A stretch of 64,000 bases of DNA from Sphingomonas sp. 8AM. Its GTDB lineage: Bacteria; Pseudomonadota; Alphaproteobacteria; Sphingomonadales; Sphingomonadaceae. The notes under the pieces are model-generated. The model was not told the origin of the DNA and did no database searches. It was given only the letters and a program-made list of their open reading frames with translations. The translations under genes were made by a program, and so were the position numbers. Positions 1,254-50,005 of the stretch are shown in pieces. Each line of letters opens with the position of its first letter. Within the stretch, counting starts at the first letter, position 1. The stretch spans positions 3,332,526 through 3,396,525 of the forward strand of contig NZ_LR733844.1 of NCBI RefSeq assembly GCF_902506455.1. The letters are read 5' to 3'.

Positions 1254-2120
1254 ATGACCGCAAACTCCCATCGCTCCGGCCTGCTGCTCGGCGTCGGCGC
1301 CTATGTCTCCTGGGGGCTGCTGCCGCTCTATCTGCACCTGCTGACCGGCGTACCGGCGTTGCAGGTGCTGGCGCATCGCGTCGTCTGGTCGCTGCTGCTG
1401 CTCGCCGCGATCGTGCTGGCGATGCGGCGCACCCGGCCGATAGTGGCGGCGGCGCGCGGGCGGACGTTGTTGCTGCTGTGCGCGTCGGCGGCGCTGATCG
1501 CGGTCAACTGGCTGGTCTATATTTTCGCGGTGCAGAGCGGGCATGTGCTGGAGGCGAGCCTCGGCTATTTCATCAACCCGTTGCTCAACGTCGCGCTGGG
1601 GACGATCGTGCTCGGCGAGTGGATCGGCGCGATCCAGAAAGCGGCGGTCGCAGTCGCCGCTCTCGGCGTCGTGGTGCTGGCGATCGCAGGCGGCGGGGCG
1701 TTGTGGATATCGCTGACGCTCGCGTTCAGCTTCGGCGTCTACGGGCTGATCCGCAAGGTGGCGGCGATCGATGCGCTGGGCGGGCTGACCGTCGAGACCG
1801 CGTTGCTGATCGGGCCGGCGCTGGCGGTGCTGTGGCTCAGCCCGGAGCCGGTGTTCGGGCGCGGCGATATCGACCTGTTGCTGGTGCTGGCGGGCGCGGT
1901 GACCGCCGCGCCGTTGCTGATGTTTGCCGCGGCCGCGCGCCGGTTGCGCTACTCGACGCTCGGGCTGCTGCAATATCTCGCGCCGACGCTGCAGTTCCTG
2001 CTCGCGGTGCTGGTGTTCCACGAGCCGCTACGGGGCGTGCACATCGTCACCTTCGCGCTGATCTGGACCGGCTGCGCGCTCTACGCTCTCGGCAGCCGGC
2101 CGCGGCGCGCTACTCCCTAG
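1254..2120 (+). CDS. rarD: EamA-family transporter RarD
   Basis: This 288-residue inner-membrane protein is built of about ten hydrophobic helices. The opening ([20 protein letters not shown], then [10 protein letters not shown]) is typical of RarD in the EamA drug/metabolite transporter superfamily. The substrate is unknown; chloramphenicol sensitivity is the classical link for RarD. The ATG at 1254 was chosen because the 52 codons upstream in frame are hydrophilic and non-homologous in look. The 3' end overlaps the convergent symporter gene by 11 bases. Confidence 0.85.
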
Positions 2121-3339
2121 GTTCGCGCCGACCCAGCCACGCGGTGGTGGCGAGGTCCATCGTGACATTGCCGACGGTGCGGATGATGTCGGGGATTGTC
2201 TCGACCGCGACCAGCAGGCCGAGTGGGGCGACCGGTGCGCCGATCGTGCCCGCGATCGGCGCGATCGCGCTGACATAGCTGACCGTGCCGGGCAGGCTGA
2301 CCGAGCCCAGCGAGGTGAGCGTCGCCACCACCACGCCGATCGCCAGCGTCGCGGGCGACAGCGGGACGCCGAACCACGTCGCGACATAGATCGCGACCGC
2401 GAGGTTCATCGCCGGGCCGGTCGCGCGGAAGATCGCGACCGCCAGGGGCAGCGTCACCCCGGCGGTGCGCACCGGCACGCCGAGCGTGCGTGCGCCCTCC
2501 AGCATCGCCGGCACCGAGGCGAGCGAGGATTGCGTGCTGATCGCCACTGCCTGTGACGGCAGCGCGGCGCGCACGAAGTCTGAAGGGTTGAGCCGCGCGC
2601 CGGCCCAGGCGACCGGATAGGCGAGCAACGTGACGATCACCCCGACGCTGGCGACGACGAGGATGTAATGCGCCAGCGCGCCGAACGCGCCCGAGCCCGC
2701 GCGCGCGCCCACCACCAGCGCCAGTGCGAATACGCCGAGCGGCGCGATCCACAACACCCAGTCGATCACCACCAGCATCGTGTCGCGGAGGGCAGTGAAG
2801 AAGCGGACGAGCAAAGCACGCCCCTCCGCGTCGATTCGCGCGATCGCGAACGCGAAGACGAGCGTGAAGATGATGAGCGACAGGAAGGCGTCGCTGGCGG
2901 CGGCGTGGACGATGTTGGTGGGGACGATCCCGGCGAAGAACTCGCCGAGCGGCGGGACCGCGGGCACCTTGCCGGCGCCGACCAGCGCCGCGCGCAACGC
3001 CTGCGCGGAGGCGGCGGGGAGCGGGGCGACCGCGAGGATCACCGGCGTCGCGATCGCGGCGATCACCGCCGACAGGAACAGGAAGGTGACGTAAAGCGCG
3101 ATCGCGCGCCCCGCCAGCCGCCCGGCACGCGCTGCCTCGGCGGTTGCCGCGACCCCGGTGACGAGCAGCGAGACGACCAGCGGCACGATCGTCATCTGCA
3201 ACCCGTGCAGCCATGCCGCACCGATCGGCTCCGCCACCGCGATCGTGCCCGCGACGGCGTCGCGCGCGAAATGGGCGAGGGCGACGCCGCCCGCCAGCCC
3301 GATCAGCAGCGACAGCAGGATGCGGGAGGCTTGCGACAT
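2110..3339 (-). CDS. Dicarboxylate/amino acid:cation symporter (SDF family)
   Basis: A 409-residue membrane protein with the layout of the sodium/proton:dicarboxylate symporter family (DctA/GltP type). It has an N-terminal hydrophobic helix ([18 protein letters not shown]), an early [14 protein letters not shown] segment, a Ser/Ala-rich re-entrant loop ([14 protein letters not shown]) and a late [12 protein letters not shown] loop. These match the two hairpin regions of the family. It probably imports C4-dicarboxylates or acidic amino acids with a cation; the exact substrate cannot be read. The gene is divergent from glmM and convergent with rarD. Confidence 0.85.
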
Positions 3340-26063: not shown

Positions 26064-26207
26064 TCGCGCAGAGGCGCAGAGGCGCAGAGCTGTGTCGCGA
26101 GGCGGCGCAGTCAGCTTCGATCGAGACCCGCACCGTACGAGCCGATGGTGACGGGCCAGCCCGGACCAGCAGGCGACACCCCTCTGCGCCTCCGCGTCTC
26201 TGCGCGA
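26064..26207. mobile_element. Miniature inverted-repeat element A (144 bp)
   Basis: A 26-base left end (TCGCGCAGAG...GGCGCAGAG, 26064-26089) and its inverted right end (26182-26207) match at 24 of 26 positions. The right end is identical to the right end of the GxxExxY-encoding element at 48791-49232. The 92-base interior has no gene. I see no target duplication. Confidence 0.7.
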
Positions 26208-26248
26208 ATCAACTTACTGTTCCGGTCGAGGCGTGAAGAAGGTTTGTT

Positions 26249-26393
26249 CACGCGGAGGCGCGGAGGCGCGGAGAATGTCGTTTGCGGCAACGGTTTCGAG
26301 CCGTCCTTGCCGGCTCATGCCTTGCCGACGTTAACGAGGGTCTCCCGCTCGCCACGGGTGCGTCAGCCTCCGCATCTCCGCGCCTCCGCGTGA
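26249..26393. mobile_element. Miniature inverted-repeat element B (145 bp)
   Basis: The ends TCACGCGGAG...GGCGCGGAG (26249-26274) and the inverted 26368-26393 match at 24 of 26 positions. It is a diverged relative of element A, nearly the same length and 41 bases away. The interior is unrelated to that of A and carries no gene. With A it fills the gap between the oxygenase gene and pth. Confidence 0.65.
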
Positions 26394-27854: not shown

Positions 27855-27989
27855 CCGTCGCCCCTGCGCAGGCAGGGGCCCATGTCTGTATCGTTGCGCA
27901 TCAAGGTCTGACACAAGGCCGGCGGTCCATGTGTCCAGGTCACACGAGCACGATACAGACATAGGCCCCTGCCTGCGCAGGGGCGACGG
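27855..27989. repeat. Inverted pair of CCTGCGCAGGCAGGGG repeats (REPIN-like)
   Basis: A copy at 27855-27893 and an inverted copy at 27951-27989 share about 38 bases including CCGTCGCCCCTGCGCAGG and the CATGTCTGTATCG tail. They enclose 57 bases between rplY and the TraB-like gene. A single copy of the same family lies inside glyS at 32211. Confidence 0.85.
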
Positions 27990-29892: not shown

Positions 29893-29964
29893 AGTGCCGC
29901 TGGAATAGCTGCGGAGCGGGCGTGAGAGAGATCACGCGACACCGCGACGCCGCGAAGAGATTGT

Positions 29965-30101
29965 TCGCGCAGAGGCGCAGAGGCGCAGAGATGGTGCGCG
30001 CGCGGCGGGTGTCCGCGGCAGCAATCTCGTCAAGCGGCGGCGGCTCCGGCGATGAGCTGGCCGCTGACGCACCCTCTCTGCGCCTCCGCGGCTCTGCGCG
30101 A
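29965..30101. mobile_element. Miniature inverted-repeat element C (137 bp)
   Basis: The left end at 29965-29990 is identical to that of element A. The right end at 30076-30101 is its inverted partner (24 of 26). Outside these, a second, looser inverted repeat (ACGCGA...CGCGAAG, about 29934-29957 and 30121-30146) encloses the whole. It lies in the glyQ-glyS spacer and carries no gene. Confidence 0.7.
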
Positions 30102-30169
30102 GCCCACCCTCTTCCCCTTCTTCGCGTCCTCACGCCTTCGCGTTACCCCCAGCAAACGGCCCGCCCAGC

Positions 30170-47828: not shown

Positions 47829-48788
47829 ATGCGCGCGTTCATCTTTCCCGGTCAGGGCAGTCAGGCGGTCGGCATGGGCGCGGCGCTGGCCGACGCCTCG
47901 GCGGTGGCGCGCGAGGTGTTCGGCGAGGTTGACGAGGCGCTGGGGCAGAATCTGCGCCGGTTGATGGCGGAGGGGCCGGCTGACGAGTTGACGCTGACCG
48001 AGAATGCACAGCCGGCGATCATGGCGAATGCGATCGCGACGCTCCGCGTGCTGACGCGCGAGGGCAATGTGCGGCTGGCCGAGAAGGCCGATTATGTCGC
48101 CGGTCATTCGCTGGGAGAATATAGCGCCTTGTGCGCGGCGGAGGCGCTCGACCTCGGCACGACCGCACGGCTGCTGAAGACGCGCGGGCGGGCGATGCAG
48201 GCCGCGGTGCCGGTCGGCGAGGGGGCGATGGCAGCGCTGCTCGGCGCGGATGTCGAGAAGGCGCAGGCGATCGCGGGCGCGGCGGTCGACCTGATCCTGA
48301 CCGAGACCGGCGAGACGCTGGTGTGCACGGTCGCCAATGACAACGACCCGTCGCAGGTGGTGATCTCCGGGCATCGCGCCGCGGTGGAGCGCGCGGTGGC
48401 GCTGGCCAAGGAGCTGGGCGCGAAGCGGGCGGTGCTGTTGCCGGTGTCGGCGCCGTTTCATTGTCCGCTGATGGAGGATGCGGCGCGGGTGATGGAGGGC
48501 GCGCTGGCGGCGGCCGATCTGCGCGCGCCGCTGATGCCGGTGTTCGCGAACGTCGACGCGGTGGCGGTGGCCGATCCGGCGACGATCCGACGCTTGCTGG
48601 TCGAGCAGGTGACAGGACGGGTGCGGTGGCGCGAGTCGGTGCTGGCGATGGTCGAGGCGGGGGTGACCGAGTTCGTCGAGTTCGGCGGCAAGGTGCTGTC
48701 GCCGATGGTCAAGCGGATCGCGCCGGACGTCGAGGTGGTGAGCGTGGTGTCGATGGACGATGTCGAGGCGCTGCTGAAGAAGTTTTGA
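47829..48788 (+). CDS. fabD: Malonyl-CoA:ACP transacylase
   Basis: A 319-residue enzyme that loads malonyl groups on ACP for fatty-acid synthesis. The start MRAFIFPGQGSQAVGMG is diagnostic. The nucleophile is Ser94 in AGHSLGEYSAL, and the histidine lies in VSAPFHCPLM. The length is normal. It is first in a fabD-fabG-acpP-fabF series. A 442-base inverted-repeat element starts 3 bases after its stop codon and separates it from fabG. Confidence 0.96.
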   Translation: MRAFIFPGQGSQAVGMGAALADASAVAREVFGEVDEALGQNLRRLMAEGPADELTLTENAQPAIMANAIATLRVLTREGNVRLAEKADYVAGHSLGEYSALCAAEALDLGTTARLLKTRGRAMQAAVPVGEGAMAALLGADVEKAQAIAGAAVDLILTETGETLVCTVANDNDPSQVVISGHRAAVERAVALAKELGAKRAVLLPVSAPFHCPLMEDAARVMEGALAAADLRAPLMPVFANVDAVAVADPATIRRLLVEQVTGRVRWRESVLAMVEAGVTEFVEFGGKVLSPMVKRIAPDVEVVSVVSMDDVEALLKKF

Positions 48789-48790
48789 TC

Positions 48791-49232
48791 TCGCGCAGAG
48801 ACGCGGAGGCGCAGAGAGGGTGTGGCTCGGGATATCGACCGGATCAGCGGCGACGTGGTCGATGTGGCGATCAGGCTGCACCGCGACCTTGGCCCGGGCC
48901 TGCTTGAGAGTGTGTACGAAACGGTGCTGGCGGCGAAGCTGGCCCGTATGGGCTACACGGTCGAAACGCAGGTTCCGGTATCTATCCGCTTCGAGGACAT
49001 GCGGTTCGACAATGCCTTCCGCATCGACCTGTTGATCGACGAGCGGTTGATCGTCGAGATCAAATCCGTCGAGCGGCGACGGCCGGTCATGCCAAACAAT
49101 TGCTGACGTACCTTCGGTTGACCGATCGTCCGGTCGGATTGCTTCTCAATTTCGGCGGAGCAACCCTGAAGGAGGGGATCCGCCGGCTGGTCAACAATCA
49201 CAACCCCTCTGCGCCTCCGCGTCTCTGCGCGA
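48791..49232. mobile_element. 442-bp element with perfect 26-bp terminal inverted repeats, encoding a GxxExxY protein
   Basis: The left end 48791-48816 (TCGCGCAGAGACGCGGAGG and so on to GCAGAG) and the right end 49207-49232 are exact inverted copies over 26 bases. The GxxExxY gene starts 6 bases inside the left end, and its frame runs out through the right end. The right end is identical to that of element A at 26182-26207. I see no target duplication in the flanks. The element has separated fabD from fabG. Confidence 0.75.
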
Positions 49233-49258
49233 ACAATCAATCTGAGCAACAGGAGTAA
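48822..49258 (+). pseudogene. GxxExxY protein gene (PD-(D/E)XK-type), one frameshift
   Basis: The first frame (GTG 48822, 94 residues) has the family signature G26-L-L-E29-S-V-Y32. It also has a nuclease-like core FRIDLLIDERLIVEIKSVE with Asp69, Glu79 and Lys81. It then stops early after PVMPNNC. Shifting frame at 49088 restores HAKQLLTYLRLTDRPVGLLL, then NFGGATLKEGIRRLVNNH, to a stop at 49256. One missing C at about 49088 (GTCATG where GTCCATG is expected) explains it. The restored C-terminus SAPPRLCAN is encoded by the right terminal repeat. The family's function is unknown; a nuclease is inferred from the motif. A sequencing error is possible. Confidence 0.8.
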
Positions 49259-49261
49259 CCA

Positions 49262-50005
49262 ATGTTCGACCTTACAGGCATGACCGCGCTGGTGACCGGC
49301 GCTTCGGGGGGGATCGGGTCGGCGATCGCGAAGGGGCTCGCGGCGCAGGGCGCGCGGCTGGCGGTGTCGGGGTCGAACGTCGCCAAGCTGGAGGCTTTCC
49401 TCGGTGAGCTGGGTGGTGACGGGCATGTCGCGGTGCCGTGCGACCTGTCGGATCCCGTGGCGGTCGACGGGCTGGTGCCGCAGGCGGTCGCGGCGCTGGG
49501 CGGGCGGATCGACGTGCTCGTCAACAATGCCGGCGTGACGCGCGACAATCTGGCGATGCGGATGAAGGACGACGAATGGGATCAGGTGATCCGCGTCAAC
49601 CTGGAGGCCGCGTTCCGGCTGATCCGCGCCGCGGCCAAGCCGATGATGAAGCAGCGTTTCGGCCGCGTGATCTCGATCACCTCGGTCGTCGGGCAGACCG
49701 GCAATCCGGGGCAGGCGAACTACGCCGCGTCGAAGGCGGGGCTGGTCGGCATGTCCAAGGCGCTGGCGCAGGAACTGGCCAGCCGCAACATCACCGTCAA
49801 TTGCGTCGCGCCGGGCTTTATCCGCTCGGCGATGACCGACGGGCTGCCCGAGGCGCAGAAAACACAGTTGACGGCACGCATTCCCGCGGGTGATCTGGGG
49901 ACGGGCGAGGACATCGCCGCCGCGGTCGTGTATCTTGCGTCGAAAGAGGCCGGCTACGTCACCGGGCAGACCATCCACGTCAACGGCGGGATGGCGATGG
50001 TTTGA
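49262..50005 (+). CDS. fabG: 3-oxoacyl-ACP reductase
   Basis: A 247-residue NADPH-dependent SDR that reduces 3-oxoacyl-ACP. The cofactor motif is TGASGGIGSA, with NNAGVTRDNL at 88-97 and the catalytic Ser141, Tyr154 and Lys158 (YAASKAG). IRVNLEAAFRL and the C-terminal YVTGQTIHVNGGMAMV are typical of FabG. CAGGAG before ATG 49262 overlaps the last codons of the GxxExxY gene. Confidence 0.96.
   Translation: MFDLTGMTALVTGASGGIGSAIAKGLAAQGARLAVSGSNVAKLEAFLGELGGDGHVAVPCDLSDPVAVDGLVPQAVAALGGRIDVLVNNAGVTRDNLAMRMKDDEWDQVIRVNLEAAFRLIRAAAKPMMKQRFGRVISITSVVGQTGNPGQANYAASKAGLVGMSKALAQELASRNITVNCVAPGFIRSAMTDGLPEAQKTQLTARIPAGDLGTGEDIAAAVVYLASKEAGYVTGQTIHVNGGMAMV

Follow-up and report, generated by a model that had tools for sequence, protein, structure and literature searches.

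Within the window, that is, the whole stretch of 64,000 nucleotides of Sphingomonas sp. 8AM DNA that was analysed, a gene-bearing element of 442 bp with exact inverted ends occupies positions 48791..49232 on the forward strand (+). It is wedged between two open reading frames of the same strand, 47829..48788 on its left and 49262..50005 on its right, which we take to be fabD and fabG; 2 bp separate the element from the fabD stop, and 29 bp lie between it and fabG. The left terminal repeat (48791..48816, +) consists of exactly 26 bp in three 8-bp units, and the right one (49207..49232, − strand) is its exact inverted copy. The first-pass annotation had described these exact 26-base ends and their outer span of 442 bp, and both are present. 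Ungapped extension carries the match between the ends to 34 nt at 94%. When as many as 3 mismatches are allowed, a 23-base core of the end is matched 7 times in the window, compared with 0.01 expected from shuffles, and chance or low complexity was ruled out as the origin of the ends by these shuffles and by the shifted-window controls described below. A search of 48700-49300 against Rfam gave no structured RNA at the gathering score.

The interior of the element holds an open frame of 94 aa (48822..49106, +), which reading frames and family profiles assign to the GxxExxY family (TIGR04256 / PF13366). The 94-aa fragment scores 79.4 bits with TIGR04256 (cut-off 35) and 79.6 bits with PF13366 (cut-off 22), and thus passes both curated cut-offs. 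The gene is nevertheless broken: the first frame, shortened by a frameshift, stops at 49106, and the remainder of the family match (81-116) lies in another frame at about 49079..49192 (+). The earlier description of one gene filling the interior between fabD and fabG therefore holds for the family of the gene, not for its integrity. Its accompanying statement, that GxxExxY genes are often present in many copies per genome, does not apply here, since the window's genome has a single GxxExxY gene and the same-genus sample yielded 124 loci in 115 genomes.

The end sequence itself recurs throughout the window's genome: with a tolerance of 3 mismatches there are 28 matches, including 11 exact ones (reversed-pattern control, 15), and many form +/- pairs about 90-140 bp apart. 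Three gene-less elements of this kind also lie in the window. An inverted pair of the same repeat as the gene's ends spans 144 bp at 26064..26207, and it is followed at 26248..26393 by an element of the CGCGGAG subtype, the right arm of which is imperfect. Between glyQ and glyS, an inner pair (29965..30101) is nested within an outer, degenerate pair of the CGCGAAG type (29932..30145). An inverted repeat pair of the GTCGCCCCTGCGCAGGCAGGGGC type, unlike the GxxExxY ends, was additionally seen by eye at 27857-27987.

Inverted ends at GxxExxY genes within the genus and across phyla

The same-genus sample comprised 201 genomes, of which 115 contained the gene, giving 124 loci after fragments of broken genes were merged. 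Ends were scored as the best ungapped inverted match between the two flanks of a gene, and windows shifted by 900 bp served as controls. A score of at least 15 was reached at 119 of the 124 loci (median 24) and at none of the 245 shifted controls (median 9), among which two windows at 13 represented the maximum. The loci scoring below 15 were L046, L048, L053, L060 and L085, and the ends are still recognisable in L048 and L060. Elements are mostly 430-490 bp long. In the usual end, TTCRCGC leads into NNAG-RCGC-NNAG-RCGC-NNAG, which makes three 8-bp units; NN is lineage-specific and defines CGCAGAG, CGCGGAG, CGCGAAG and other subtypes. In type A proteins, as seen in relatives, the right end doubles as the coding sequence for the last residues of the C-terminus.

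A second GxxExxY subfamily, with mostly CAC-type ends, was observed at L043, L034, L042, L059, L068, L151 and other loci. Of 16 loci away from fabD-fabG, 10 share a conserved neighbourhood of this subfamily's own; at L043, the neighbours of the GxxExxY gene are presumably KorB-like and photolyase-like genes.

The association extends well beyond the genus. A scan of genome contigs from many phyla gave 573 loci, of which the best 80 were retained as named loci; ten of these are genes already in the 124-locus set, all ten from sphingomonads. Among these best 80 of 573, 69 score at least 13, as compared with 0 of 149 controls, and they include 35 of the 36 loci classed by title as alphaproteobacterial and 34 of the 44 others. 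The sharing of ends by GxxExxY genes, which the first-pass annotation had suggested checking, was thus found both within the genus and across phyla. The unit design faces the gene on both sides at 58 of the best 80 loci (30/36 alphaproteobacterial, 28/44 others) and at 1 of 149 control windows. Such two-sided facing is absent at the other 22 of the 80, and at 5 of these 22 (2 alphaproteobacterial, 3 others) the unit design occurs in the reversed direction only. At least one unit-design arm is present at 34/36 alphaproteobacterial loci and 42/44 others of the same best 80, although a single arm carries little information because 29 of 149 control windows have one. L272 reaches the score threshold with ends of a different design.

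The non-alphaproteobacterial named loci include representatives of Nostoc, Flavobacterium, Verrucomicrobia, Planctomycetes, Chloroflexi, Desulfobacteraceae, SAR324 and Acidobacteria; the Nostoc ends, for instance, read CTCACGCAAAGGCGCAAAGGCGCAAAG. Those missing the score include loci from Geobacter (L255), Chitinophagaceae (L286) and Melioribacteraceae (L289). At L245, titled Pseudomonadota only, the GxxExxY gene also lies at fabD-fabG.

In the window's genus, DUF559 genes (L370-L399, and L187, presumably a DUF559-like gene, in the glyQ-glyS junction of G017) show the same architecture with unrelated ends of the CCCCTCCCGC..GCGGGAGGGG type. DUF559 ends score at least 15 at 27 of 29 loci (one of 30 loci, being short, was left out) and at 1 of 58 controls, and the gene is present in 57 of 61 genomes. 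DUF559 may be a second small nuclease family with its own dispersed repeats, and it seems to have reached the same architecture as GxxExxY.

Dispersed gene-less copies and their dependence on gene presence

Gene-less inverted pairs are dispersed in the genome and measure about 110-250 bp overall. Some are simple inverted pairs spanning about 130 bp; in others, a pair of the GA type encloses one of the GG or AG type, and this nested form is better preserved in other genomes than at 29932..30145. In one relative (G098), 15 of the 19 dispersed loci retrieved were classed by eye as inverted pairs, and pairs are found in G000 too. The glyQ-glyS junction was read in 11 relatives, in a comparison that left out G020 and G035. 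Counterparts of the window's element, partly of other subtypes, occur in five (G005, G008, G016, G029, G032), the junction is empty or almost so in four (G001, G009, G013, G014), and G017 and G003 have elements of a different kind.

In the closest pair of genomes, G098 and G146, the fabD-fabG flanks share 95.6% identity. Of 14 sites compared between them, at least 4 are filled in one genome only (the G146 partners of L294, L300, L303 and L312), and two of these G146 sites hold other sequence instead; the G146 partner of L311 has the outer pair only. Among the 14 sites, a judgement from which the alignments L295/L320 and L308/L319 were left out, there was no clean case of a target-site duplication or of a clean young insertion. 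When the copies of these sister species are compared (L313-L326 versus L294-L312), they differ by whole 8-bp units, by one unit at several sites, and this points to slippage or unequal exchange inside the array of units.

The repeats depend on the presence of the gene. With a single pattern at up to 2 mismatches, a match was found in 102 of the 115 genomes that have the gene and in 17 of the 86 that do not; the reversed-pattern control gave 435 and 23 matches in the two groups, respectively, and is raised in gene-bearing genomes because the motif is repetitive. Three subtype patterns at 1 mismatch were also summed, for which the reversed control gave no match with the CGCGAAG type and few with the other two. 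At least four summed matches occurred in 99 of the 108 genomes with the gene at fabD-fabG and in 9 of the 86 gene-less genomes (Fisher p 4.5e-33), as well as in 1 of 7 genomes having only the other gene type. Shared ancestry was taken into account on a tree built from fabD and fabG, which covers 149 genomes (107 that have the gene at this junction and 42 of the 93 without it; 3 of 152 rows were dropped as too short). Of 21 independent pairs on this tree, 14.4 were concordant for gene and repeats, 0.5 were opposite and 6.1 had no repeat difference (median p 0.0003). The first-pass annotation had regarded repeats equally common in genomes without the gene as evidence against its proposal, and neither the counts nor the independent pairs show such a pattern.

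The correspondence has exceptions in both directions. Fewer than four matches were found in 9 of the 108 gene-bearing genomes, and gene-less G141 and G159 retain about 30. Among the nine gene-less genomes with repeats, G031, G090 and G131 retain decayed remnants at fabD-fabG, long inserts of other kinds occupy it in G009 and G159, another repeat is present in G141, and the junction of G120 is short; in G020 the fabG match starts at a contig end, and G176 is without a fabG match. At the level of subtypes, the GA fraction of the dispersed repeats is 0.46 for genomes with GA-type genes and 0.23-0.25 for those with GG and AG types. A strict subtype match between the ends of the gene and the dispersed repeats of its own genome was considered and rejected, as there is a tendency only. 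Arm identity (94% within versus 84% between elements) is a biased measure because the arms were picked for similarity.

The protein, its fixed site and the exchange of cassettes

GxxExxY proteins are conserved. Motifs and lengths were counted at the 118 loci that match the GxxExxY expression, leaving out L073, L106, L107, L139, L146 and L147, the last of which has lost the K of ExK. Full-length same-genus proteins retain D and ExK in 109 of 109 and QxxxY in 108 of 109, and frames shorter than 120 aa occur at 9 of the 118 loci, the window's gene among them. The median dN/dS of 0.063 (50 pairs) indicates purifying selection. Structure prediction for L240, a named relative, from an alignment of 71 gave a model with a pLDDT of 91.4, the best solved fold for which is SSO0001 (Foldseek E 8.7e-4; VIA Z 8.9 over 101 residues, rmsd 4.4), which we take to be a Cas4. 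Other PD-(D/E)XK folds matched by the model are 3ijm (Z 8.5) and the Holliday junction resolvase Hjc (Z 6.6), and the homing nuclease I-Bth0305I is a weak fold match at rank 21 (E 0.31). Because these Z values are middling, the assignment is limited to fold class and motif order and does not extend to Cas4 function. On the predicted model, the GxxExxY protein is a conserved, compact PD-(D/E)XK nuclease with its nearest neighbours among Cas4/RecB-type folds (E, D, ExK, QxxxY).

No solved relative was found by sequence at E up to 1, and the Pfam matches of the 94-aa fragment at E up to 1 were PDDEXK_3, SAM_LFY and SfsA only. With PADLOC, the type A protein had weak matches (RT-associated PDDEXK, E 0.0005; Cas4, E 0.005-0.06) and the type B protein had no match, while PHROGs gave weak matches only.

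Within the genus, 107 of the 124 gene loci lie at the fabD-fabG junction, in one orientation, and fabD and fabG adjoin 17 of the 80 named loci (best 80 of 573). A freely hopping transposon was consequently ruled out for the gene-bearing copy, given this single site and the shared neighbourhood of 10 of the 16 loci elsewhere. Plasmid or phage cargo was likewise ruled out by rarity: 4 of 72,556 plasmid records, searched with one subfamily-B protein, contain a relative, and a pattern scan of viral contigs, of limited sensitivity, gave 1 relative among 94 pattern matches. The mobile, self-spreading unit proposed in the first-pass annotation is therefore borne out in part: gene-less pairs are dispersed, but the gene-bearing copy keeps to one site, where it moves mainly as an allelic cassette.

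Of the 44 gene-less fabD-fabG junctions that were read and classed by eye, 26 are short (at most 46 bp), 6 contain decayed remnants, 5 contain other repeat families, 5 contain other long inserts, and 2 are unclassed. Filled and empty sites thus coexist here as well as at glyQ-glyS, in agreement with the empty-site polymorphism that had been proposed as a check. Along the tree, the gene is gained or lost 26 times. Palindromic repeat families other than the GxxExxY element were observed at fabD-fabG in G141, G168, G078, G033 and G047 (loci L358, L366, L367, L368 and L365, respectively). Since both fabD-fabG and glyQ-glyS take other repeat families, the choice of site may reflect a permissive junction and not cleavage specificity, and this is the main caution against inferring site specificity.

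The element and its flanks have different histories. Among pairs with 2,000-3,100 aligned flank bases, 50 pairs have flanks at least 94% identical (94-96%), and in 38 of these (28 loci) the elements are less than 80% identical; 3 pairs are intermediate and 9 have elements at 90% or more. The converse is seen in G123/G191, in which elements 98.0% identical lie between flanks 88.3% identical. The flanks of G052/G111 match right up to the element ends, and in G167/G070 and G071/G092 the last ~20 bases of fabD differ too. On a flank tree of 52 rows and 18 element types, the type changes 30 times, where the minimum is 17. From these alignments, we read the mismatch between element and flanks as cassette exchange by recombination or homing, and not as fast evolution in place.

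Interpretation and comparison with known systems

The explanation that we favour, to which we give about half of our confidence, is a two-part repeat system. One GxxExxY gene between three-unit inverted ends would be held at a fixed chromosomal site, which in this genus is fabD-fabG, and scattered gene-less pairs would rely on its protein for their spread or upkeep. The nuclease most likely recognises the unit array and would cut at or beside it, perhaps at moments when its inverted arms are in single-stranded form or fold out as hairpins. After such binding and cutting, host repair could copy the element elsewhere, with gene-less copies being made in trans. The gene-bearing copy may spread between lineages by replacing the resident allele in a homing-like manner; allele replacement at a fixed site would follow from cutting, and in the pairs examined the limits of exchange lie at the ends or within about 20 bp of them. 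Several findings count against the two-part system: target-site duplications and clean young insertions were sought without success, the copy with the gene is not dispersed, the association of gene and repeats has exceptions, subtypes match only as a tendency, and 22 of the 80 named loci do not show the two-sided unit design. The window itself is a further one, where the gene is broken although the genome still has the repeats.

Several of these observations can be given another weight. If homing or allelic drive at one site were the main activity, the nuclease would cut the fabD-fabG junction or a rival element and be copied in by recombination, and the dispersed repeats would be a by-product or older debris. 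The 107 of 124 loci at a single site fit this explanation, as do the different elements over flanks 94-96% identical, with limits at the ends or ~20 bp into fabD, and the weak fold match to I-Bth0305I; other PD-(D/E)XK homing nucleases exist. We consider it rather unlikely, however, as it gives no account of the abundance of gene-less pairs sharing these ends chiefly in genomes that have the gene, or of the similar ends across phyla at other sites, and the fabD-fabG junction takes other repeats as well. The protein might instead be a nuclease with a host function, for which the repeats are sites bound or processed in the course of repair, end processing or the shaping of the chromosome, while the pair beside the gene would serve autoregulation. 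Strong purifying selection, the mostly single copy at a conserved site, the rarity on plasmids and in viral contigs, and the RecB/Cas4-like fold are all consistent with such a role. It is made doubtful by the 26 changes in gene presence on the tree and the decayed remnants, which represent losses, by the swapping of cassettes among relatives, and by near-sister genomes that differ in filled sites; moreover, in contrast to binding sites strewn over a genome, the repeats delimit elements that are restricted in length and have inverted arms.

It is very improbable that the repeats belong to another transposase and that the GxxExxY gene is a passenger caught between two copies. Dispersed elements without the gene do exist, and the gene's own copy is not spreading, but a passenger would be expected in some elements only, whereas similarly designed ends accompany the gene in many phyla, and gene and repeats vary together across the tree.

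The two-part system, as we envisage it, could represent an undescribed class of mobile DNA in many phyla, a proposition for which we see about as much chance of its being right as wrong. Its sole enzyme would be a minimal Cas4/RecB-like PD-(D/E)XK nuclease recognising 8-bp unit arrays, with one fixed-site cassette, the alleles of which are replaced by homing, a gene-less satellite population and, in DUF559, a seemingly convergent counterpart. Repeats of similar design beside a common GxxExxY protein in many phyla suggest a likely substrate for the protein and a likely agent for the repeats, and a single purified protein and a single short DNA would suffice to test this pairing. Should the nuclease be what moves the elements, it would add an enzyme class to DNA mobility and provide an independent parallel to REPIN-RAYT, and cassette swapping at fabD-fabG would be a natural allelic drive inside an essential operon.

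Literature searched by title and abstract opening, mostly without subscription journals and without preprints, contained no description of the ends or of the gene-repeat pairing, and its sequence matches amounted to a short primer-like string. GxxExxY is named in PMC8934634 and PMC12085832.

Among enzymes, the closest likeness is to Cas4 and RecB-type nucleases, in fold and in the motif order D, ExK, QxxxY. Cas4 has a PD-(D/E)XK core with QxxxY and iron-sulphur cluster cysteines; the modelled protein L240 has no cysteine, and GxxExxY differs further in having its own terminal repeats. The Rpn / PDDEXK transposase-like families and TnsA are likewise PD-(D/E)XK nucleases linked with DNA movement. 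The 94-aa fragment had no Pfam match to Rpn, PDDEXK transposase-like families or TnsA at E up to 1, and TnsA acts with a DDE partner, whereas the GxxExxY element has a single gene.

In anatomy, the elements resemble MITEs, which are described as gene-less, about 100-400 bp long, with terminal inverted repeats; like them, they seem to rely on a gene located at another place in the genome. They differ in being without a known transposase family. Among the sites of G098 and G146 that could be judged, none gave a clean pair of filled and empty alleles, and target-site duplication was not seen. In behaviour, they recall PD-(D/E)XK homing endonucleases, of which I-Ssp6803I is one: a small stand-alone nuclease, a fixed insertion site, and an allele replaced while the flanks are conserved. 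The GxxExxY gene, however, lies outside any intron or intein and has its own inverted repeats and many gene-less satellites. By analogy, the GxxExxY element resembles a combination of MITE-like anatomy and homing-like behaviour, neither of which fits fully.

The nearest functional parallel is REPIN-RAYT. In that system, a single-copy gene is flanked by linked repeats, gene-less and mostly inverted pairs are dispersed, and the gene is conserved while the repeats form a population (PMC3116915; PMC8049555); the RAYT phylogeny is there reported as largely congruent with the species (PMC3116915). GxxExxY is alike in that the gene is nearly single-copy (124 loci in 115 genomes) with ends at 119 loci, and in that its dispersed repeats are inverted doublets (15/19 G098 loci). 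It differs in enzyme, PD-(D/E)XK as opposed to the HUH/Y1 of RAYT (no HUH match in Pfam at E up to 1 for the 94-aa fragment), in its ends, which are arrays of direct 8-bp units where REPs are short and palindromic, and in the swapping of the gene copy between lineages (30 type changes, minimum 17, on the fabD-fabG tree only). The GxxExxY system is therefore not a member of REPIN-RAYT, because its enzyme belongs to another class and its gene copy passes from lineage to lineage. We rate it as new by enzyme class and end design, with a functional analogue in existence and a movement that we infer. On our best reading of this analogy, the nuclease would do for its own repeats what RAYT transposases do for REPINs, while belonging to an unrelated class of enzymes.
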